From NCBI GenBank assembly GCA_017992195.1, contig JAGOPC010000001.1:1-64000 (forward strand): a DNA stretch of 64,000 bases, read 5' to 3'. The position numbers and the translations under genes are program-made. The notes beneath the pieces were generated by a model that did no database searches, was not told the origin of the DNA, and saw nothing but the letters and a program-made list of their open reading frames with translations. This document shows, piece by piece, positions 3,837 to 55,679 of this stretch; the stretch's first letter is position 1; the number at the start of each line of letters is the position of its first letter. The DNA comes from Patescibacteria group bacterium (GTDB lineage: Bacteria > Patescibacteriota > Gracilibacteria > Absconditabacterales > Absconditicoccaceae).

Positions 3837-6800
3837 TTATTTAATATACTTCGTCAAATCTATCGTGTTCTTCACTGTATTTCCATACACATCCGCCACC
3901 TCATAGACGAGCGGCTGTGGGATCTTTATCTGATAGGTCGTCGCGTTGTTGCTGAATGAGTTGATGAGCGTGCCATCTGTCATAGAAATCTTTCCGCTCT
4001 TTATCGCAGAGAGATCGTCAACAAATAACATCACCACATCATAGTTCCCGTCTGCTCTCTTTCTTACAGCAAGCGTATCAGTGAGGAGATACGGCGCGAC
4101 GTTATCGAGCGGCACTCACACGACTGAAACGGTTTTCTTATTGTATCTACCTTTGTTGTCTGTCGCGATGATCGTCAGATTGTGAGGAGCGCCATCGATA
4201 GGCGCCGGCGCACTGATCTTCTTGATATCGCTTACTCTGTTTCATGCTCCCGCATGAGCAAAGTCACCCAGATCAACATTATCGAGCATTACTCTTATCT
4301 TGCTGATAGGCGCTGCAGCAGAGATATCATATCGCACACTAAACGTCTGCGCTATCTTCCCATTATCATGTGGCTGCTTCAATGTAATCACAATACTATC
4401 ATCTTGCGCTCCGAGAGCCGGTCTATTCTCGCATGTTTTCGTAGGCTCTTCGAGAAACAGATTCCCGATAGGAATAGAAACATCGCCTGTAGCCGCACTG
4501 CCGGTCCCCATACCCGCCTTCTCTCTCCGCCGATTATTAATATCATCTAAGTCCATATTATTTGGCATGAAGCTTGTCGGCTTGAAAAGATAGCCATTTA
4601 TGATCTCCGCCTGAGGTGTCACGTCAGATATCTTTCCCATACATGCGCTGTCGATCTGTATTGGCGTCAAGGCGCCATCCATCTCATTTGGCGCGGTCGA
4701 AATATATGCCATCGAACTCACCTTCTGGTCTGCAGGTGTTGTTTCTGTCGCCAACTTTCCGGTGATCTTCGAAACCGCGACATCCTTCACCTCTATAGGG
4801 GAAACGTTTTCTGTTTGGATTAACCCCTGCTTGAGGAGATTTGAAAAGAACTGTCTGAATGTCTTTCCATTCACCCGACCTCCGTAGGCATTCACGTTCA
4901 TAGGATTTCCTTGTGTGTTACCCGCCCAGAACACGGCCACTTTCGAAGGAGTATAACCCACAAGCCAACCATCTCTTGGAAGTTTTTTTCCTGTCTTAGG
5001 ATCTTTCATATCTGTTGTCCCTGATTTGTTTGCATAAAGCAAGCCGCCTACCCTGAAATTTGCAATCCAGCTTCCTGGAAGATTCTCCTCCGTCGTCAGA
5101 ATCTTTCGCATGAGATATGCAACTCCGCCGGGGATAATTTTTTGTTGAAGTTTTTCTTGTTCTTGCGCTTTATCATAAAGAATGTTTCCGTCTGGTCCTG
5201 TCACCTGTAAGATCGGATTGATCTTCGCAGGCGCTCCGTTGATCGAACTCAGCTGCATATAGCCATTTGCAAGTTCCATCATCTTGAGCTCACCAGCACC
5301 GATCGAGAGCGGATATCCGTAATCTTTTTTCGAATCATATGAATTTATACCGATCTTATTCAGATACGGAATGAGCTTGTCCTGCCCGCCGACCGCAAAG
5401 TACATCTTGATCGCAGGAATGTTTCTGGAATGTCCAAGTGCTTTTCTCAGCGGCAGAATACCCTCAAAGAGACCATCATTATCATTCGGCGTATCGTTAC
5501 CAACCTTAAACGCTATGTCATAGATAGGAGTGTCAATGCTCAAAGGAAGATTCATAAATCCAAACGCGTAGACAAGAGGCTTGATGGTTGAACCCGGTTG
5601 TCTCGACTGTTGTACCATATCAACCTTTCCATCTATATCGTCGCTGTTATAGTCGGCCGATCAAACGTACGCGAGCACATCACCATCCAGGCTGTCCAGA
5701 TAAAGCATCGAGCTGTTATTAGCCCCATACCCATTCACTGTCTTTATGTTGTCGTCAATACTTGCCTCAGCGATATCCTGTGCCTTGATATCGAGCGTCG
5801 TCTTGATAGTTAGCCCACCCTTCGTTAACTGTTCCTCTGTGTATCCTTTATCCTTTAATCGTTCTATTATCCGGAACACGAAATGGGGCGCCTTGATATC
5901 AATTCTGGCTGATTTGAACTGATAGGTCAACCCCTCCACAAACGCATCTTTTGCTTGCTGTGCGTCTATATATCCATCCTCGTACATTCTCGACAGCACA
6001 TAATCCTTTCTTCCAGGCACAAACTCAACATCATACTCTTGCTTATCAACCTCCACCGTAAAATTTCAAACTCTTTCAACATAACTCATAAATCCTCCCG
6101 CAGATTTACTTACCGACCTCGACGAACTATTCATATTACCGATCATTCTCTCGATCACTTTTGGTGCAACACCGCCGGTCATCATATCGATCTCATCGCC
6201 CTCTAATGTAACCGTGAAAGCTCCCATGAGTTGGTCGACATTTCTATATGGGTTTACCGCCGAAGGACGCTGAGCCATAGAGGCGAGGATCGCAGACTCA
6301 AGAATATCAACATCTTTTGATGACTTGCCAAAGTAGGTCTTCGAAGCGGCCTCTACTCAGTTCGAATTATTTCCCAGGAAAATATAGTTTAAGTACATCT
6401 CTACGATACGTTTTTTCACTTCCTTCTTACGCTCTACTGACGAAAGATTTGGCTTTTCCTTGCTAACTTGATTCTGAAGATAGTCGTCAAGCTTTGTCGC
6501 TAAGATAATTTCCTTTGCCTTTCTCGTCAGAGTCTTCTCGTTCGAGAGCAACAGAAGCTTGATCAGCTGTTGGGTGATCGTCGATCCTCCCGGGCCGCTT
6601 AAGCTCCCATTTTTGACGCTCAGCCAGACCGCCCTAAGAATACCGGAATAGTCAACTCCTTCGTTGTTCCAGAAATCTTTATCCTCCGCCGCGATGATCG
6701 CATTGACGGCGTGCGGAGAGATATTATCATATGATACATACTCTCTGTTCTCGTCATAAAGCTTGTAGAGCACTTCACCATTCCTATCGGTGATAATAGT

Positions 6801-11308: not shown

Positions 11309-12325
11309 ATGTATAATTTCTATCAATCGCAGCTCCGATATGAACTCACGAAAGATGTCTATAAAAAGCCCACTTTTGAGGTAGAACTCCTCGGCAAAAG
11401 ACATTTTGGCGTTATCAGAGATAAAAAGATCGGACCATGGAGCTTCAGACGATACCAGGTACTCGGTGTCGAAATACAGGATAGACACGCGCAATTAAAA
11501 AAAGATATTGAACATATAAAACAAACCTTACTTACCGACAAACACGCACTCTTCTTCCAACTAGGCATCATCGACCCGTTCGATGGATTTCCTTGTAAGA
11601 TCAACAAAAATGAGTCTGTGCTTAAAGCGATCAGACTCAAGCGCGATGTTACGCAACAAGAGATGAAAGAGCTCTTTGATCTTGAGGTGGGATTCAAAGA
11701 GAATCTGCCAAACAGCACCATCATGATCGACCTCAAAAAGAAGGAAGACGAGCTACGGACTGATGTGACGTCGAACTGCAAACAGGCTATCAAAAAAGCT
11801 CAGAGACATCACCTGGAATTTGCAGAGGCTACCCCGGAAGAGCGGGATAAGTTCTACCAGATTCGATGAGGAACGGCGGCGAAAAAGGCTTTCTTCATCC
11901 TGACGAAACCTGTATTTAATGCGCTCAAAGAGTATGTCGTAGCAAACAAAGCATGATCATTAATGCTCGTAAAAGGACCAGGCGGCGAGATAGTAAGCGG
12001 CAGCATTTATTTGTTTGATAAAACGGCGAAGGCGATTATATATTTGTACGGTGCGACCGACAGAAAAGCGGGAAATATCGGTGCAAACAACTTTCTGAAA
12101 CGAGAGGTGATAAAACGAGCGAAGAAAGAATGATATGAAATTTTTGACCTCTTAGGCGGCGCTCCAACCGGATATCCGAAGCACGAGCTGGTGACGGTTA
12201 GTCATTTTAAGGAGTCGATGTGAGGGGTAAAGTATGAACTCACCGGAAGTTATGATATTGTTGGTAACAAGATATTATATAAAATGTATAAGATGAAAGA
12301 GGATAAAAAACAACGAAAGATCTAA
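11309..12325 (+). CDS. FemAB family peptidoglycan bridge ligase-like protein
   Basis: This 338-residue protein has the tandem GNAT-like fold of FemABX enzymes, which use aminoacyl-tRNA to add amino acids to lipid II peptide bridges. Family landmarks are CKQAIKKAQRHHLEF near residue 160, GATDRKAGNIGANN near 250, and FDLLGGAPTGYPKHELV followed by HFKESMGVKYE. Four in-frame TGA codons are read as Gly, two of them in GYEIFDLLGG and ESMGVKYE where the family has Gly. CGG and CGA fall at positions often Trp in homologues (EEL-W-TDV, FYQI-W). It probably acts on the product of MurG in the cytoplasm. Confidence 0.85.
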
Positions 12326-23821: not shown

Positions 23822-24670
23822 ATGAATAAAAAAGATATTTTTATAGATTATCCTTCAGATAAAAAGCGGGGTGACTTAGCGAATGCAATCATGCGAAGCG
23901 TCACTATTTTAGCTATTATCTTAATGATTGTCTCGTCAGTAAGGGAAATTGAAAAAACATTCTATCTTGCTATTTTAGCCATAGAACTCGTTATTTCTGT
24001 TATTTTTGTGATCGATTTCCTTATTCGCGCTCATATGTCCTGACGAAAAAGATCTTTTTTCGTAAATGTTTTCAATATTTTTGATCTTGCAGCCTGACTT
24101 CCGTTTATCCTCGCATTCTGACTTAAGTGATATCTTGCTCTCGACTATTTAAAAATTCTTAGACTTACGAGGATTTGTAGACTATTTAGGATCGGGAAGT
24201 ATTTTACATTTCTAAATAATCTTTGGAAAGCACTCGAGAAAAACGCTTATAAGTATAAGATTGCTTGAGTATTCTTTCTTTTAAGTTGGATTATTGCTTC
24301 ATTTCTTATGTATGTGGTAGAATGATCAACTAATATTTGATTCTCTAGTATACCAAACAGTATGCGGTGGGCGATAGTTACGATGTCTACCGTAGGATAT
24401 GGAGATGTATATCCAATTTCTTTTCTATGAAAATTTGTGTGAGGTGTAATCATGCTTTTGTGACCAATCTTTGTTGCGATAATCTCATCTATCTCGATTA
24501 TTACATTCCTCGATGTGATGAAATTTATTGGAAAAGAAAAAAATGATGCGGCTATTTGTGATAAGTGTAAAATATCGAATCATGACACTGACGCAAAATA
24601 TTGTCGTTTCTGTGGAGACAAACTTTTATCAACATCACCCTCTAATAGTTATATATTAGATAACTATTAA
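23822..24670 (+). CDS. Voltage-gated-type potassium channel with zinc-ribbon tail
   Basis: This 282-residue membrane protein has six predicted helices. The S4-like helix reads DYLKILRLTRICRLFRIGKYF, with its regularly spaced arginines encoded only by AGA and AGG. The pore has the potassium selectivity filter TMSTVGYGDVYP (about 185-196). The C-terminus carries a zinc-ribbon, CDKCKISNHDTDAKYCRFCG, which is unusual for small bacterial channels. Ten in-frame TGA codons are read as Gly, mostly inside or next to membrane helices. It probably sets membrane potential. Confidence 0.88.
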
Positions 24671-34412: not shown

Positions 34413-35480
34413 TTAGAGAAAGTCAAACATACTTCTACAAATCATTTCCTTAGCTTTACTAACCTCTTTCTCTACGTTTTCTCCCGACCGGTCTTTTTTC
34501 CATCCCTGCACCTTCTCTAACGCTATCGGTAAGCTCAACAAGAAGCTCTCATCCTGCTTTACCAACAAATCATTAAAATGTCTTTCATAATACGCAGCGT
34601 TCAACAGCTGATCATGTGTTCGTGGGATCGGTACCATCACCAACTTTAGCCCGAACAATTTCTGCTCTGCCATCGACGTCGTCCCGGCACGCGTGATCGC
34701 CACATCACATCTTGCCAATAACCCACCCATCTCAGCCTGGCTCACAAAATCATAACATTCAACGTTCTCCAGACCCTCAAAAAGATATCTCAGCCCACTG
34801 TTTTTCGTTCCTAAAACGACGTAAAAGCGGCTTTTCACGTAACCATTTTTTCTAATAAGCTCCGCCAATGGCCTATAAACTGACTCAGCCCCCTGTGACC
34901 CTCAACTCACCAAAATCTGCGTCTTTTCGTCTCCCTCAAAATTCTCATTTACTCCCATTAATAAATCCTCGCTCAAGATCTGCCCCACGACAATTTCCTT
35001 CCCCGGAAAAACTCCCGCAAACCCCGTAAAGATTGTCGTCGCAAACCTCGCACAGATTCTATTCGACAGCCCCGACTTCGCATCTGACTCATGCATCACG
35101 ATTCTCTTTCTCAATATCCATCCTGCGATAACTACCGGCAACGACACATATCCTCCCTTACAAAAAATTACATCAATCTTTCTCTTCGACAACTTCCGGA
35201 GTGATTCTATAATTCACCACACCACCACGAACATATCCCCGATGTTTCTGATCCGCTCTGTCAGCGAAGCTCCTCTTCTGATCTTTCCAGAGACGATACG
35301 TATAAATTCGACATCGCCAAATTCGCCCGCTACACTCTCTTCGAGACCTCCGCGTTCCCCCAGTCGCACCAGCATTTCTGCCTTCTCCTTGTATTCAGGG
35401 TGCGTTTCGATATGTTGTATCAGCGATCTGACGGGAAAAACATGACCTCATGTTCCACCTCACGCAAAAGCAATCCTCAT
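34413..35480 (-). CDS. murG: UDP-GlcNAc:lipid I transferase
   Basis: This GT28 enzyme of 355 residues makes lipid II on the inner face of the membrane. The start MRIAFAGGGTGGHVFPV holds the GGGTGGH motif with two glycines encoded by TGA. Further landmarks are GKIRRGASL, CKGGYVSLPVVIAGW, HESDAKSGLSNRI, VSGGSQGA and AITRAGTTSMAEQ. Four TGA codons in all. CGA in EMLV.LGE.GGLE falls on a position that is often Trp in CPR MurG-like proteins, while the conserved RR of KIRRG is AGA AGA. It is divergent from tRNA-Val. Confidence 0.93.
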
Positions 35481-44303: not shown

Positions 44304-44432
44304 AATTTCCGAGAGTACATTTTCAGGAGATCCCATGAAAAGTTATCCACAAAGTCGTCGAAAGATTGTGCAAAGTTTAATCAGAAAATCTCAAACAAAA
44401 AGAATAATTTACTTGTGCAAGCTAAAACAAAA

Positions 44433-45911
44433 ATGATTTTCATTTTGTCGATATCTTTGAACCTAGCGCTGGCGACATTTTTTCAGAGCGTCTGGCCAGC
44501 TTGTATAGCTACCACATGAATGTTAATAGTAGTCCTGCTGGCAGGATGTTTTTTCCCTTATCGTCGCTTTCCTTGAAAAAGAGTCTCGATGATTCTCATA
44601 GCCTTTTCGTTGTCGATGGGAAGCCTCTTTTGGGCCCATAGAAATGTGATTTCTCAATGAGAAGGCGCTTATCTCGGCACAGGAGAAATCCTGGAAAAAC
44701 AGGGCGTAGGTAGATATCTTTTGGAAACCCCAATAGGCAAGCAGTTTCTCTACTATTCCGATCGCGACTATCCGATAGGGGCGATCTTATTCGTTGCCGG
44801 ATCTCTGCAGGAAGCAACTGGTGAAACAAATCTTCTCAGAAGATTTTCCTGGGAAGAAATAAGCAAGAGAGCCCAGATATTGAGTGATGAAGAGTGGGGC
44901 TTTGACAAAAATAGGTGGCTTTTGATGCGCGGCCGGCAGGGGAGTCTGTATGAAAAAGAGGCTTTAATCATAGGCAGAAAGCCCGTCTCATATATAGCTA
45001 GCCGACGCCAGAATCTTATTCGTCTCATGGAAAAGTCGTACGACAGACAGACGCTTTGACTGACGGTTGGTATGCTTATCGGCGAACGTTCGTACCTCGC
45101 GAAAGAGGACTATCAGTCTTTTATTTCGTCGGGGCTAGTGCATATCATCGCCGTCAGTGGCGGCAATATAGTGCTTATAGTCGCCTTTCTAAGCGCAATA
45201 CTGTTTTTTATTCCCTACTATATAAGACTTACTCTTATCTCTGCTGCCATCGTTCTGTATGCCTGTATTTGTGGCTTTGACAGCTCGGTGGTTCGTGCTG
45301 TGACCATGGCTCTGATCGGTATCATGGCTCTTTTTGTCTGACGCTCACTCTCTATCTGGCGTAGTATAGGATATGTCTATGTGGGTATGCTAGTGCGAAA
45401 TCCGTATTATCTTTTATATGATTTAGGATTTATATTTAGTTTCTCTGCCGTCATAGGGTTAGTCTATTTTTCGGAGCGCTGGAAGATAACAAGCGTTAAA
45501 AAAGTTCGACAGGGGAGTGTGCGAAAGAGCATTGTGGGTTTGATGAAATCATTTCGAAATGTCTATGTGTTGCCGAGTCTTTCGGCTTCTCTTGCGGTCT
45601 CTGCACCTCTTTTATTCTTCACAAGTCGTGTCAATCTCCTGTCTATAGTGTCAAACATTCTTGTGGTGCCGCTTGTTCCCTTTGTAATGATCTATGGATT
45701 TCTTGCTGCACTTTTTTATACTGTATTTCGTTGGCAGTTTATCATCCTGCCACAGAAGCGGGCAGTAGAGCGGATCTATATGGTTAATACACGAAGCGTG
45801 AACCATGCGCTGTCGATGAATGCTTTGAGTTGACCCGCCAGATGCGGCATACTCATTACAGTAATCATTTCTGTCATTATTGTCATATATACTCATAAGA
45901 GAATGGTGTAG
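44433..45911 (+). CDS. comEC: ComEC/Rec2 DNA uptake channel
   Basis: This 492-residue membrane protein transports single-stranded DNA into the cell. It has early hydrophobic helices, an OB-like DUF4131 region (about 80-200), then the competence domain with SGLVHIIAVSGGNIVL (about 235) and FDSSVVRAVTMALIG (about 285), and more helices. The C-terminal lactamase-like domain of longer ComEC proteins is missing. Six in-frame TGA codons are read as Gly. Its TAG (45909-45911) lies within the tRNA gene that starts at 45897, an overlap of 15 bases. Confidence 0.9.
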
Positions 45912-45967
45912 TGGTAGCACATCAGCCTCCGAAGCTGATAGTCCAGGTTCAATCCCTGGTTCTCTTG
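45897..45967 (+). tRNA. tRNA with anticodon CCG, probably charged with tryptophan
   Basis: The sequence folds as a compact 71-base tRNA: acceptor AAGAGAA/TTCTCTT (perfect), D stem GTG/CAC, anticodon stem TCAGC/GCTGA, loop CTCCGAA with anticodon CCG, T arm CCAGG/CCTGG. Formally it reads CGG. The discriminator is G and the first pair is A-U, as in bacterial tRNA-Trp, the loop differs from the tRNA-Trp loop CTCCAAA by one base, and position 20, an A in many arginine tRNAs, is T. With CGG falling on conserved Trp in genes here, tryptophan identity is favoured. CCA is not encoded. Confidence 0.85.
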
Positions 45968-46324
45968 AATAAAAACATGAAATGAAAAATTTATAAAGTA
46001 TAGTTTTCCTTCAATTCTATTTTATAAACTTTTGGTTTCCTCATTCTAATATAGACAGCAATGGTCAACCCGCTAAAGCGGGTTTATTTTTTTGTCACAA
46101 AGAGTGACGAGGATCGTATTACCACGTACTGATGTGTTACAATAATGTCAGTCTCCACCTTGCAACTTCGCTGCTCGCTATGCGTGTCGTGTTGTGTCAA
46201 AAAAGACTTGCAATGCAGGCGTGGATTAGTATTACTATTGTAACCGTGTGGAGACACGGATTGGGATGTTTAATTGAAAGGATGTTTTATCCACATCTAT
46301 TTATTTCCTTTTTTACAACGACAC
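45968..46324. other. Gene-free region and leader of the SLH protein gene
   Basis: It holds a terminator at 46066-46093, then about 230 bases up to the SLH protein start. A TTGCAA element (46208) with a weak -10 about 16 bases on could be its promoter. The 25 bases before the ATG are T-rich (TTTATTTCCTTTTTT) and contain no Shine-Dalgarno sequence. No coding frame is supported. Confidence 0.45.
46066..46093 (+). terminator. Terminator after the CCG tRNA
   Basis: AACCCGC/GCGGGTT hairpin followed by TATTTTTTT. Confidence 0.85.
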
Positions 46325-49300
46325 ATGTTGAAAAAGCTTATTGCTACATCAGCTGCTGCTGCCGTTGTTGCTAGTCAACTCGTTACTGGTCTCGTTTACG
46401 GAGCTCCAGTAGTAACTGATCCTGAAATGATCGATGCGATCTCTTGGGGTTATGATGCAGGTTTGACAAAGTACAGCGGAACAGACACATTTATGCCTTA
46501 TGCAAATCTTACTAGAGAACAGTTTGCTAAATTCGCTAGCGAATTTGGTATGTCAGTTCTTGGGTTAGAGGAAGTTGCAGGTATGTGTTCATTCACAGAC
46601 ACTGCTAACGCCGACTCTACACTTACTGCTTCTATCGTTAATGCCTGCGAATTAGGGCTTATGATGGGACACGATGGTAAGTTTATGCCTAAGCAAGAAG
46701 TAACAAGAGGACAAGTTGCAACTGTAGTATCTCGTATGCTCGGTGAAATTGATCCTATGTCTTCTGAACAAGCTCACTTCGAACTCCTTAATTCTAAGGG
46801 TATTATGAAGTACGCAATGCTTAGTCAGTCTATCTTAAGAGGTGACATGATGCTCATGCTCTACAGATTGGCTATCAACAACAATGGTCTCTGTGATATT
46901 GATCCTTCATTGTGTAACAACAACGGTACAGGAACAACTACTCCTCCTGTAGTGAAAGAAGGTAACCTCAATATCTCAATGAACTCTGCGTCTCCAGCTA
47001 ATCTCTCTTCTGTTCCTCAAGCAGGTTCAGTGAAGTTTGCTACTGTAGACTTTTCTGCAGGTTCTAAAGACATTTCTGTTAATTCAGTTACACTTAAGAG
47101 ATCAGGACTCGGACAGACTGCTGATATCTCAAGAGTATACTTTGAAAAAGACGGAATAAGAGTGTCTTCTAGAGCTTCTATCAGCGCTGATCAGACTGTT
47201 ACACTTAGCTTCGCACCAGCATGGGTGATCAAGGCAGGTACAACAGACTCTATCGATCTCTACGTTGATATGGCTGCTTCAAGCGTAGGAGGTGAGCACA
47301 TGTTCCAATCTACATCTATCGACAGCTCAGCTGCTAATGTAGTAGGAATGATCACTACACCTACTCTCAGAACTGCTAACTACCTCGTTTCATTGGTAAC
47401 ATTCACATCAGCTGGTGCAGGTCTTACTGCAACTGCTAGTGATGCTGCTGATCTTGAACTTGGTCAGTTCAGAATCGCTGATTCTTCTACAGGTTCTGAC
47501 GAGAGAGATCTTCTCTTCAAGTCAGTAACATTTAGACAGGACGGTGATGGTGACCTTACAAGCCTTTCAAATGTAGGTCTCTACAGAAACGGTGTTAAGG
47601 TTTCTACAGTAACTGTTATGAATGGTAAAGATGTTATCTTTGGTCTTGGTAACGGTGACGAAATCAAGGACAGCCAAACAGCTAACTACTACATCAGAGG
47701 TTCTGTTAACTATGTTGACGGAGTTAATGGTGACACATACAACTTCAGACTCAGAAATACTTCTGACCTGAATGTTATCGAAGAAACAACTGCATTCAGA
47801 TCAAGAGTATCTGGAAGCAATGTATCACTCGCTACTTACACTGTAAATGGCGCTGATGTAATGTTCAAGAAGGATGCTTCGTTTGCTCTTTCTAACAGTG
47901 TTTCTCCTGGAACTAACGGTGCGGTTCTCCTCAAGGGTACTATCACTGCTAAGACTCCAGTATTCCTCGAAGACATCACTATGGCTTACACTGCAGGTGC
48001 AGGAGCAACAGGTGCTAGCGCTTTCGCTAACAGCTTCAAACTCCGCATAGGTGGTTCTACATTCACTTGGAGTGCTACTAACACAACTGGTGGTAACGCT
48101 ACATTTGATGGATCTGTATCTATCAACGGTACAGCTGAAGTAGAGCTTACAGCAGACATCAAGTCTACAGCTCCAGCTGGATCTCTTAGATTTGGACCTC
48201 TCTCACTCGCAAGCTTTGACACTAAGGAATATCAGAACAACCAGAACACAATCTCTGGATCTGCTTCTGTTGGTTCTATTGACGGAGCTACAGTAACAGT
48301 GGTTTCATCTAAGCTTAATGTAACAAGAACTGATGGTATCTCTTCTAAGACTATTGTAAATGGAGCCCAGGATCAACTTCTCTATGGTGCTACATTCTCA
48401 ACAGCTCAGGCTAATGCTATCAGAGTTAATCAAATGACATTCTCTGGAAATTCTTCTACAGGTGTTGTTCCGGTAAGTGCATTCAACAGCAATCTCACTG
48501 CAACTCTCTACGACGCGCAAGGAAATGCTGTTAAGACTGCTACATACCTCAACGGACAGGTAACATTCTTCGGTCTTAACATCAATGTTACTAACGGAGC
48601 TCCAGTAGGATGGACTGTAAGAGGTAACTTCACTGCTGGTGCAACTGGTACGTTGAAGCTCGTTCTTACAAGCGTTGATGCAGTAGACACAGTAACATCT
48701 AATACAGTAACTGTTGCTGATGTTGCAGGTGGTGCCCTCACTATTGATGGTTCTGCTACTGTTGAAATTGCAGCTAACTCATCACTTCAGTCTCAACTTC
48801 TTCACGGAGGTCAGCAAAATGTAACCCTCGCTCAGTTCAACCTTCAAGGTAAGAACGATGCGGTAGATGTAACAGATCTCTACCTTGCGACTTCAGGATA
48901 CATTGGGTCTGCTCTTTCTAACAAGATCAATAACGTAACACTTACTGACGGTACTAACTCATGGTTCGGTACTATCAGAAACGGTGGTATTGCATTCGAA
49001 GGTATGACAAACAATAGTCTTTCATTATCACAGACTAAGACATACTCTCTTAAGGCAGACGTTAATGACGTACTCAACACATCTGACACAACAGGAAGCT
49101 TCTTGTTCCTCTTCGATACTGGTACTGTGATCACTGATCAAGTAGCTGGTGCGACAAGTGGAGTTAGAGCTATCTCTAAGTCAAATGGTCAGCTTGTAAC
49201 TGCTGTAACTAATCCTTCTACTCCATTGTCTCAAGCAACAAGAGTTGTAAGAGGTGCTATCACTGTCTCTAAGACAAATATCACTCCTACATCTTCTGAG

Positions 49301-49714
49301 TTCGCTAGATTCGATATAGCAGCTAAGGGTAACAGAGTACAGGTTACAGGATTCACAATGAGTCTTACTAATGTAACTGGTGGTAACACAGGTAACATCA
49401 TCAACATCTACAAGAACGGTCTTGGTGGTGACCTCGTTTACTCAGGTATCGTTGGTACAGGTGACGCGGTTCCGGGTGCAGTAGTATTCAATCAGAATCC
49501 TTACTATGTTGAAATCACAGCAGGAAGCTCTGTAACGTTCTCAGTGAAGGTAGTAAATCCAATCGCTACACTCAATGGAACTACGGCTAATCCTATGGGA
49601 ATCAACCTCACGGCAATCTCATACCTCGACAAGCTTGATAATGGTGACTCTCGCATCGTTGATGCAGCATCATACAAGAATGTTGGTGCTTTCCCTTTCA
49701 CATGGTCTCAATAG
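46325..49714 (+). CDS. Large SLH-domain surface (S-layer-like) protein
   Basis: This 1129-residue secreted protein has a signal peptide (LIATSAAAAVVASQLVTGLVYG), two SLH-like repeats (about 35-80 with NLTREQFAKFA, about 85-140 with EVTRGQVATVV), a short Cys/Asn/Thr linker and a run of beta-rich Ser/Thr/Gly domains. It contains not one in-frame TGA in 1130 codons although it is very rich in Gly (GGT, GGA), and its Arg is almost all AGA. This strict codon choice suggests very high expression, as for an S-layer. The start is ATG 46325; an in-frame ATG lies 17 codons upstream but would precede the signal peptide. A strong terminator follows. Confidence 0.88.
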   Translation: MLKKLIATSAAAAVVASQLVTGLVYGAPVVTDPEMIDAISWGYDAGLTKYSGTDTFMPYANLTREQFAKFASEFGMSVLGLEEVAGMCSFTDTANADSTLTASIVNACELGLMMGHDGKFMPKQEVTRGQVATVVSRMLGEIDPMSSEQAHFELLNSKGIMKYAMLSQSILRGDMMLMLYRLAINNNGLCDIDPSLCNNNGTGTTTPPVVKEGNLNISMNSASPANLSSVPQAGSVKFATVDFSAGSKDISVNSVTLKRSGLGQTADISRVYFEKDGIRVSSRASISADQTVTLSFAPAWVIKAGTTDSIDLYVDMAASSVGGEHMFQSTSIDSSAANVVGMITTPTLRTANYLVSLVTFTSAGAGLTATASDAADLELGQFRIADSSTGSDERDLLFKSVTFRQDGDGDLTSLSNVGLYRNGVKVSTVTVMNGKDVIFGLGNGDEIKDSQTANYYIRGSVNYVDGVNGDTYNFRLRNTSDLNVIEETTAFRSRVSGSNVSLATYTVNGADVMFKKDASFALSNSVSPGTNGAVLLKGTITAKTPVFLEDITMAYTAGAGATGASAFANSFKLRIGGSTFTWSATNTTGGNATFDGSVSINGTAEVELTADIKSTAPAGSLRFGPLSLASFDTKEYQNNQNTISGSASVGSIDGATVTVVSSKLNVTRTDGISSKTIVNGAQDQLLYGATFSTAQANAIRVNQMTFSGNSSTGVVPVSAFNSNLTATLYDAQGNAVKTATYLNGQVTFFGLNINVTNGAPVGWTVRGNFTAGATGTLKLVLTSVDAVDTVTSNTVTVADVAGGALTIDGSATVEIAANSSLQSQLLHGGQQNVTLAQFNLQGKNDAVDVTDLYLATSGYIGSALSNKINNVTLTDGTNSWFGTIRNGGIAFEGMTNNSLSLSQTKTYSLKADVNDVLNTSDTTGSFLFLFDTGTVITDQVAGATSGVRAISKSNGQLVTAVTNPSTPLSQATRVVRGAITVSKTNITPTSSEFARFDIAAKGNRVQVTGFTMSLTNVTGGNTGNIINIYKNGLGGDLVYSGIVGTGDAVPGAVVFNQNPYYVEITAGSSVTFSVKVVNPIATLNGTTANPMGINLTAISYLDKLDNGDSRIVDAASYKNVGAFPFTWSQ

Positions 49715-51142: not shown

Positions 51143-52438
51143 CTATTGTATAAGTAACTTAAAACTCTTCTTCCCCTTCCTCAGCAAAGCGACTTTCCCA
51201 TTGATAAGGTCGTCTTTTGTTATCTCGCGATCTATTGCTTCTATTTTTTGCTCGTTAAGATAGATAGATCCCGCTTCTACCGCTGTCTTCGCATTTCATT
51301 TTGATGATTCGAGTTGTGTTGCTATGATAGCATCTACAATGCTCATTGGAACTGTTTCAAGCTGAATTCCTCCCGTCTCATGCTTCAAAGCTTCGATCTC
51401 GCCTTCGTTCATATTCTTAATAAGCTCTAACTTGTTCTCACTACCAAACAACACTTCAGTTATTTTCTCAGCCGCCTCGACAGCCTTCTTTCCAAAAATC
51501 GTCTGTACCACATAGTGGGCGAGTTGGCGCTGACCAAATCTTGCGGCGGCATCTTTATTGTGCTCAGCTACGATAGTCGCTATCTCATCGAGACTTAGCA
51601 ATGTGAATAGCTTCAAAAATCTTTCTACGTCCTCGTCGCTCGTATTCATAAAGTATTGGTAAACGTAGTATGGCGAATTCTTCTTAGCGCTAAGCCAAAT
51701 TGCGTTTCCTTCTGACTTTCCGAATTTCTTTCCTGTGGAGTCTAGGATCAATGGTCAAGTCATACCAAATACCTCATCGCCACATTTCTTTCCAGTCAAT
51801 TCGACTCCTGTAACGATATTTCCCCGCTGGTCAGAGCTGGCGATCTGTAAATTAACTCCTTTGTGCGTGTGCAGCCAGTAGAAATCATACCCCTGGAGGA
51901 GCATGTAACTAAACTCAGTGAAGGAGATCGACTGTTCAGGGTCTTCGATTCTCTTCTTGACTGTCTCCTTTGACATCATCTGATTGACAGTTATGTACTT
52001 GCCAACCTCTCTGAGAAATGTTGAGAACGACATATCTTTATAGAACTCCTGATTATTCACTACCTCAAAGCTAAAATCTTCCCCTGAAAGTTCTTTCAGA
52101 TTGCCTAAAATAAATCCCACCTGTTCGGTAATCTTTGAAACATTATACTCGAGCGTCTCTTGTGAGAGGAGCTGTCTTTCGCTGTTCTTTCCGCCCGGAT
52201 CTCCGATCATACCAGTCTCACCACCTACGATAAGCACGAGATGATTTCCGCGCTTCATAAAATTTACCGTATTCATGATCGCGGTAAAATTCCCGAGATG
52301 AAGGCTGTCAGCGGTTGGGTCGCAGCCTAGATACAATGATTGCCCGCCTCACTCATACAGATCAAATAACTTATCGCTCGTAAACTGGTACAAAAACCCA
52401 CGTTTCTCAAGCTCGTCGCGCAAATGCATCGTTCTCAT
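51143..52438 (-). CDS. tyrS: Tyrosyl-tRNA synthetase
   Basis: This class I synthetase of 431 residues charges tRNA-Tyr. It has YLGCDPTADSLHLGN (the HIGH-type motif), SSDQ.GNIVTGVEL, the KMSKS-type KKFGKSEGNAIWL and a C-terminal S4 domain (GSIYLNEQKI). Three TGA codons are read as Gly (YEGGGQS, GMTGPLI, SKGNAK). The codon in SDQ-x-GN is CGG (51824-51826), where Trp is almost invariant in the family, while TGG serves for Trp elsewhere in the same gene. This is one of the strongest points for CGG as Trp. Confidence 0.96.
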
Positions 52439-55250: not shown

Positions 55251-55679
55251 TTATGCAATTTTGTAAAAAAGTTTAATGCATGTGTCTTCGTCGGGAATAA
55301 GATCGTATGTGAGAGCCTCGTGAGGTGTTGCCCGTAAGTGGGTGAGGTGTTCATCAGGATTTATTTGAATAGGATTTGATGCGTCAAATGGAGCAGAGAA
55401 CATATGATAGATGAACTCATAGTTGTCGTGTTTAACGAACATATTTGTGAAGTAGGTTAATTCGTTCACCTCCGCGCCTATCTCTTCGCTGATCTCTCTC
55501 TTTATAGCCTCTTCGAGTGTCTCTCCTTCGTCGACCTTGCCGGCAGGCACGCCGTAGGTTCCGGGCTGAGGCTTGTGTAGTTGTCTCTGGAGGAGGAGAA
55601 TCTTGCCATCATGTTCCAGAAAACAACTCACTACTTCGAACTTTGGAGAAAAGCCTTCTCGCTTGTGTTGTGAGATCAT
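55251..55679 (-). CDS. NUDIX hydrolase
   Basis: This 142-residue protein has a complete NUDIX box, GKVDEGETLEEAIKREISEE (about 47-66), with the metal-binding glutamates. It would hydrolyse a nucleoside diphosphate derivative; the substrate cannot be told. The CGG in THL.ATPHEA falls on a Trp that is common in NUDIX proteins at this point. There is no internal TGA. Confidence 0.88.
   Translation of the reverse strand: MISQHKREGFSPKFEVVSCFLEHDGKILLLQRQLHKPQPGTYGVPAGKVDEGETLEEAIKREISEEIGAEVNELTYFTNMFVKHDNYEFIYHMFSAPFDASNPIQINPDEHLTHLRATPHEALTYDLIPDEDTCIKLFYKIA

Follow-up and report, generated by a model that had tools for sequence, protein, structure and literature searches.

A tryptophan-type tRNA(CCG) and the probable reading of CGG and CGA as tryptophan in a bacterial lineage of 42% GC

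The first reports of sense codons with a changed meaning in bacteria date from 2021 and relied on rare codons in low-GC genomes. The code of Absconditabacteria is NCBI table 37. Shulgina and Eddy (2021; PMC8629427) predicted this code with Codetta, assigning UGA to Gly and both CGA and CGG to Trp. In the same paper, CGG was Trp in Anaerococcus and in a Bacilli clade (RFN20), and the Gracilibacteria were mixed, with CGG as Trp in some members and as Arg in others. Of two papers from 2026, one speaks of Absconditabacterales only (PMC13092985), and in the other the gene sets of these bacteria are still translated with code 25 (PMC13059738).

The window, that is, the whole stretch of 64,000 nucleotides analyzed here, contains a tRNA gene next to a comEC-like gene. 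The features of this locus are as follows.

45897..45967, plus strand: tRNA(CCG) of the Trp type (ARAGORN, Rfam RF00005, U8-anchored register, cloverleaf fold)
44415..45911, plus strand: ComEC/competence-protein open reading frame upstream of the tRNA (Pfam Competence PF03772, 143 bits with the codons taken as Trp versus 135 bits as Arg)
46067..46084, plus strand: intrinsic-terminator-like hairpin approximately 100 nt downstream of the tRNA (scan: AACCCGCTAAAGCGGGTT followed by TATTTTTTTG)

The tRNA at 45897–45967 is real. ARAGORN called tRNA-Arg(CCG) at 45896–45968, the match to RF00005 in Rfam covered exactly 45897–45967 (66.8 bits, E = 2.4e-12), and the tRNA strand folded alone into a full cloverleaf. 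The register of the ARAGORN call, with an outer U:G pair (T1:G72) and A73, is incompatible with the spacing of U8 and A14 and was therefore rejected. The positions of U8 and A14 and a D stem of 4 bp (GTGT/GCAC) define the acceptor as the 7-bp stem AAGAGAA/TTCTCTT, and hence the first pair is A1:U72 and the discriminator is G73, as the original prediction had stated. The predicted CCG anticodon is borne out by ARAGORN together with the U8/A14 anchoring. The predicted lack of A20 also holds, since the 7-nt D-loop AGTGGTA places U at position 20, and the anticodon loop (CTCCGAA) is indeed one base apart from that of the genome's own tRNA-Trp(CCA) (CTCCAAA), which likewise has A1:U72 and G73. The length of 71 bases had been considered an oddity; it is ordinary, because CCA is not encoded, the D-loop has 7 nt, the variable loop has 4 nt, and the CCG and UCG relatives in the family that were parsed in full are 71–72 nt long.

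A comparison with tRNA-Trp(CCA) and UCG tRNAs, which had been proposed as a check, revealed that A1:U72 and G73 are common to the CCG, CCA, and Trp-type UCG tRNAs. In overall sequence identity, tRNA(CCG) is nearest to the genome's own Gln tRNAs (66–67%) and the Trp-type UCG tRNA (67%), and Arg(GCG) (61%) ties with Trp(CCA) (61%). Thus, tRNA(CCG) is not a closer match to the arginine tRNAs of the lineage. An origin from tRNA-Trp by a change of anticodon is unsupported, as the tRNA body is nearest, although weakly, to the Gln tRNAs.

The comEC reading frame and the tRNA gene share 15 nt (45897–45911), with the TAG stop codon of comEC (45909–45911) inside the D-arm of the tRNA. Both tRNA(CCG) and its position next to comEC are conserved in the family of related genomes: in seven relatives, the tRNA immediately follows comEC, and the same large gene came next in four of the seven. 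In the window, positions 46274–49714 (plus strand) encode a secreted-looking protein of 1146 aa, in which in-frame TGA is absent and CGG and CGA are almost absent. Its Gly codons are GGT and GGA, its codon choice is unlike that of its neighbors, and it may be a surface protein with high expression. In some relatives, a homolog follows tRNA(CCG).

The genome assembly (1.01 Mb, 47 contigs) is 59% complete. Its tRNAs for the CGN box are Arg(GCG), Trp-type UCG, Trp-type CCG, and Arg-type UCG, and no tRNA(ACG) was observed among the tRNAs of this 59% complete assembly. The second Trp-type tRNA, with the anticodon UCG, has A1:U72 and G73 and is located on contig C29, as is Arg(GCG). In the relatives, A1:U72 and G73 were present in 13 of 13 distinct CCG tRNAs, and the UCG tRNAs parsed in full all had G73 and mostly U72 (L235 was cut short in parsing), and the fully parsed tRNAs of both kinds are of the Trp type, with no A20; these CCG and UCG tRNAs were retrieved by similarity to Trp-type tRNAs, a procedure that could miss Arg-type ones.

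UGA encodes glycine. The genes of the window stay open across in-frame TGA, long open reading frames are open only with TGA as a sense codon, and the genome's own tRNA(UCA) is of the Gly type (G1:C72, C2:G71, G3:C70, U73). None of the 48 family genomes searched had a match to prfB (release factor 2) above the curated cut-off, while 10 of 10 bacterial controls were positive. A single TrpRS gene, trpS, is present in the genome (contig C37, L048:2971–3954). This gene itself has CGA at the conserved Trp of the LAW motif, so that the production of TrpRS depends on the very reassignment for which this enzyme is presumably responsible. The same small genome has two different genes resembling arginyl-tRNA synthetase, on contig C14 (L045:8633–10555, minus strand) and contig C22 (L046:3032–5194, plus strand), both of which contain in-frame UGA.

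The meaning of the codons was analyzed at conserved columns. After masking of CGG and CGA, four genes of the window (tilS, murG, rsuA, and a class A penicillin-binding protein [PBP] gene) were each aligned with 19–29 members of the family; three of the four (rsuA, murG, and the PBP gene) were picked because they had looked unfavorable to Trp. Counted as alignment cells, which are not independent, the relatives had 63 TGG and 15 Arg in the window's own CGG columns and 77 TGG and 2 Arg in its CGA columns. In contrast, the control columns of CGT/CGC (0 TGG versus 228 Arg) and AGA/AGG (0 versus 609) were free of TGG, and the window's own TGG columns had 121 TGG and 3 Arg. The safer figure is the count of sites with any TGG in relatives, which was 7 of 11 for CGG and 8 of 12 for CGA, as opposed to 0 of 86 for CGY/AGR (Fisher p = 2.6e-8 and 3.1e-9, respectively). 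MurG and the PBP, when tested against relatives, clearly have Trp at most sites, and RsuA column 106 is uninformative. Four examples illustrate these columns.

5871..5873, minus strand: CGG codon 410 of the PBP gene; relatives have TGG 24, CGA 2, Tyr 2, and Met 1
4527..4532, minus strand: CGG codons 857–858 of the PBP gene; relatives have TGG 13 and 16, and CGA 12 and 7
5106..5108, minus strand: CGA codon 665 of the PBP gene; relatives have TGG 22, CGA 7, and nothing else
34620..34622, minus strand: CGA codon 287 of murG; relatives have TGG 13, CGA 10, and CGG 2

Profile scores pointed in the same direction. Reading CGG and CGA as Trp raised the summed Pfam score of 20 window proteins by approximately 37 bits, a total that was summed by hand with one family counted per domain, while reading CGT and CGC as Trp lowered the score of 10 of the 20 by approximately 130 bits. 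CGG alone as Trp gave a net gain of 7.7 Pfam bits, a figure that covers the genes scored with this reading and leaves out four others; by Pfam scores, the support for CGG is less strong than that for CGA. NCBIfam scores increased with CGG/CGA as Trp for trpS (+5.0 bits), argS (+4.2), tyrS (+4.5), and fmt (+6.9). CGA occupies the bracketed Trp position in TrpRS (LA[W]xL), ArgRS (ND[W]G), and Fmt (RAFxx[W]P). Further sites in the window are as follows.

51824..51826, minus strand: CGG codon 205 of tyrS, in the SDQ[W]GN motif; TIGR00234 increases from 315.2 to 319.7 bits as Trp
24365..24367, plus strand: CGG codon 182 of a K+-channel gene, the first Trp of the pore motif [W]WAxVTMxTVGYGD; Ion_trans increases from 75.4 to 81.2 bits with CGG as Trp
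55332..55334, minus strand: CGG codon 116 of a NUDIX hydrolase gene, in a Trp-favoring column; NUDIX increases from 65.9 to 70.7 bits with CGG as Trp
12101..12118, plus strand: CGA codons 265 and 270 of a FemAB-type gene, in an LxWExIxWAK-like motif; FemAB increases from 50.1 to 57.6 bits with CGA/CGG as Trp

The CGG and CGA sites in TyrRS, the K+ channel, TrpRS, ArgRS, and Fmt lie in columns established as invariant Trp in these families.

These results suggest, with a probability of approximately 93% in our estimate, that tRNA(CCG) is charged with Trp by the single TrpRS and reads CGG, so that CGG encodes Trp, that the UCG tRNA reads CGA as Trp, and that CGU and CGC remain Arg and UGA is Gly. 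The role that the original prediction gave to tRNA(CCG), the adaptor for CGG as Trp, is supported by the TGG columns, the Pfam and NCBIfam gains, and the invariant Trp sites, and the same evidence extends it to CGA. CGU and CGC are plainly Arg codons. From the identity elements, TrpRS would recognize tRNA(CCA), tRNA(CCG), and tRNA(UCG) through G73, the first pair, and C35, and ArgRS would be kept off by the loss of A20 and A73 and the gain of G73. The CCG anticodon would read CGG, and the Trp-type tRNA(UCG) would read CGA and, by wobble, also CGG. The tRNA(GCG) would keep CGU and CGC as arginine, and tRNA(UCA) would read UGA as glycine.

CGG might still be arginine, with tRNA(CCG) an ordinary Arg tRNA that has G73 and lacks A20 by chance. 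The anticodon itself is CCG, the signal for CGG is less clear-cut than that for CGA, MurG columns 76 and 331 (CGG in the window) have 15 Arg cells and no TGG in the relatives, and a few Pfam domains score better with Arg, since RsuA, MurG, and Transpeptidase each lose 2–4 bits with CGG as Trp. However, TGG prevails over Arg in the CGG columns (63 versus 15) and is absent from those of CGT/CGC (0 versus 228), CGG encodes invariant Trp sites, and every one of the 13 family CCG tRNAs has A1:U72 and G73. We regard this explanation as very improbable.

The other explanation concerns the Arg-type tRNA(UCG), located on contig C4 (C4:3921–3994, L044). It has A20, A73, and G1:C72, scores 54 bits in Rfam, and conflicts with CGA as Trp unless it is dead, uncharged, or mis-binned. 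If it and the two Trp-type tRNAs (UCG and CCG) compete, CGA, and by wobble CGG, would be ambiguous, and proteins would contain a mixture of Trp and Arg. Contig C4, with UGA as Gly and CGA at a conserved Trp of Fmt, appears to come from an organism of the same kind, and the genome has two ArgRS genes. On the other hand, the Arg-type tRNA(UCG) had no clear full-length match in 47 relatives (one partial match of 28 nt was found), and the CGA columns are nearly without Arg (77 TGG versus 2 Arg). Because it has a T-stem mismatch and U in place of C56 and did not form a cloverleaf when folded alone, this tRNA may be decaying or mis-binned. In it, A19/U56 replaces G19/C56, an exchange by which the tertiary pair would be kept. 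A Trp/Arg mixture arising from such competition is likewise very improbable. Nevertheless, in view of this C4 tRNA and of the second ArgRS, encoded on C14, we allow a small chance that CGA and CGG are ambiguous, with the Arg-type tRNA, perhaps charged by the second ArgRS, opposing the Trp-type tRNAs in a live intermediate of the reassignment or its partial reversal.

The reading of CGG and CGA as Trp has consequences for annotation and for further study. In a lineage of 42% GC, more Trp residues would be encoded by CGA and CGG combined than by UGG, a reading supported codon by codon throughout the family, and the CGG question appears settled for this branch. Code 25, applied to the gene sets of these bacteria, would misassign over half of the tryptophans. 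The lineage also offers a good system for studying how TrpRS accepts the CCG and UCG anticodons.

The family includes Candidatus Gracilibacteria Tobar13m-G42 (rplB 66%), identified as a member by its tRNA coordinates, and the closer rplB records include patescibacterial MAGs. This one informative name suggests that the family belongs to Gracilibacteria. If so, the reassignment of CGA and CGG extends to that group; if the family is instead placed with Absconditabacteria, the published prediction is confirmed in a member with higher GC.

The genome agrees with the Absconditabacteria code on several points: UGA is decoded as Gly and has a Gly-type tRNA(UCA), CGA and CGG fall in Trp columns, a tRNA(CCG) and a tRNA(UCG) have G73 and lack A20, and a tRNA(GCG) is present, with ACG not found. 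It differs in GC content, which is approximately 0.42 in the window and 0.26–0.38 in the published reassigned clades (PMC8629427), although low GC is a correlate in that paper and not part of the code. The recognized genes of the window have 71.5 TGG, 44.0 CGG, and 52.8 CGA per 10,000 codons, whereas the most advanced genome of Shulgina and Eddy has 35, 24, and 30, respectively (PMC8629427). A Trp-type tRNA(CCG) reading CGG is common to this lineage and Anaerococcus/RFN20. In those bacteria, however, CGA stays Arg via ICG and tRNA(UCG) is absent, while here tRNA(UCG) is present and of the Trp type, and CGA is read as Trp. Thus, the code change is of an already known kind, and what is new is the family-wide support, the GC content of 42%, and the share of CGR, which makes up approximately 58% of the Trp codons.
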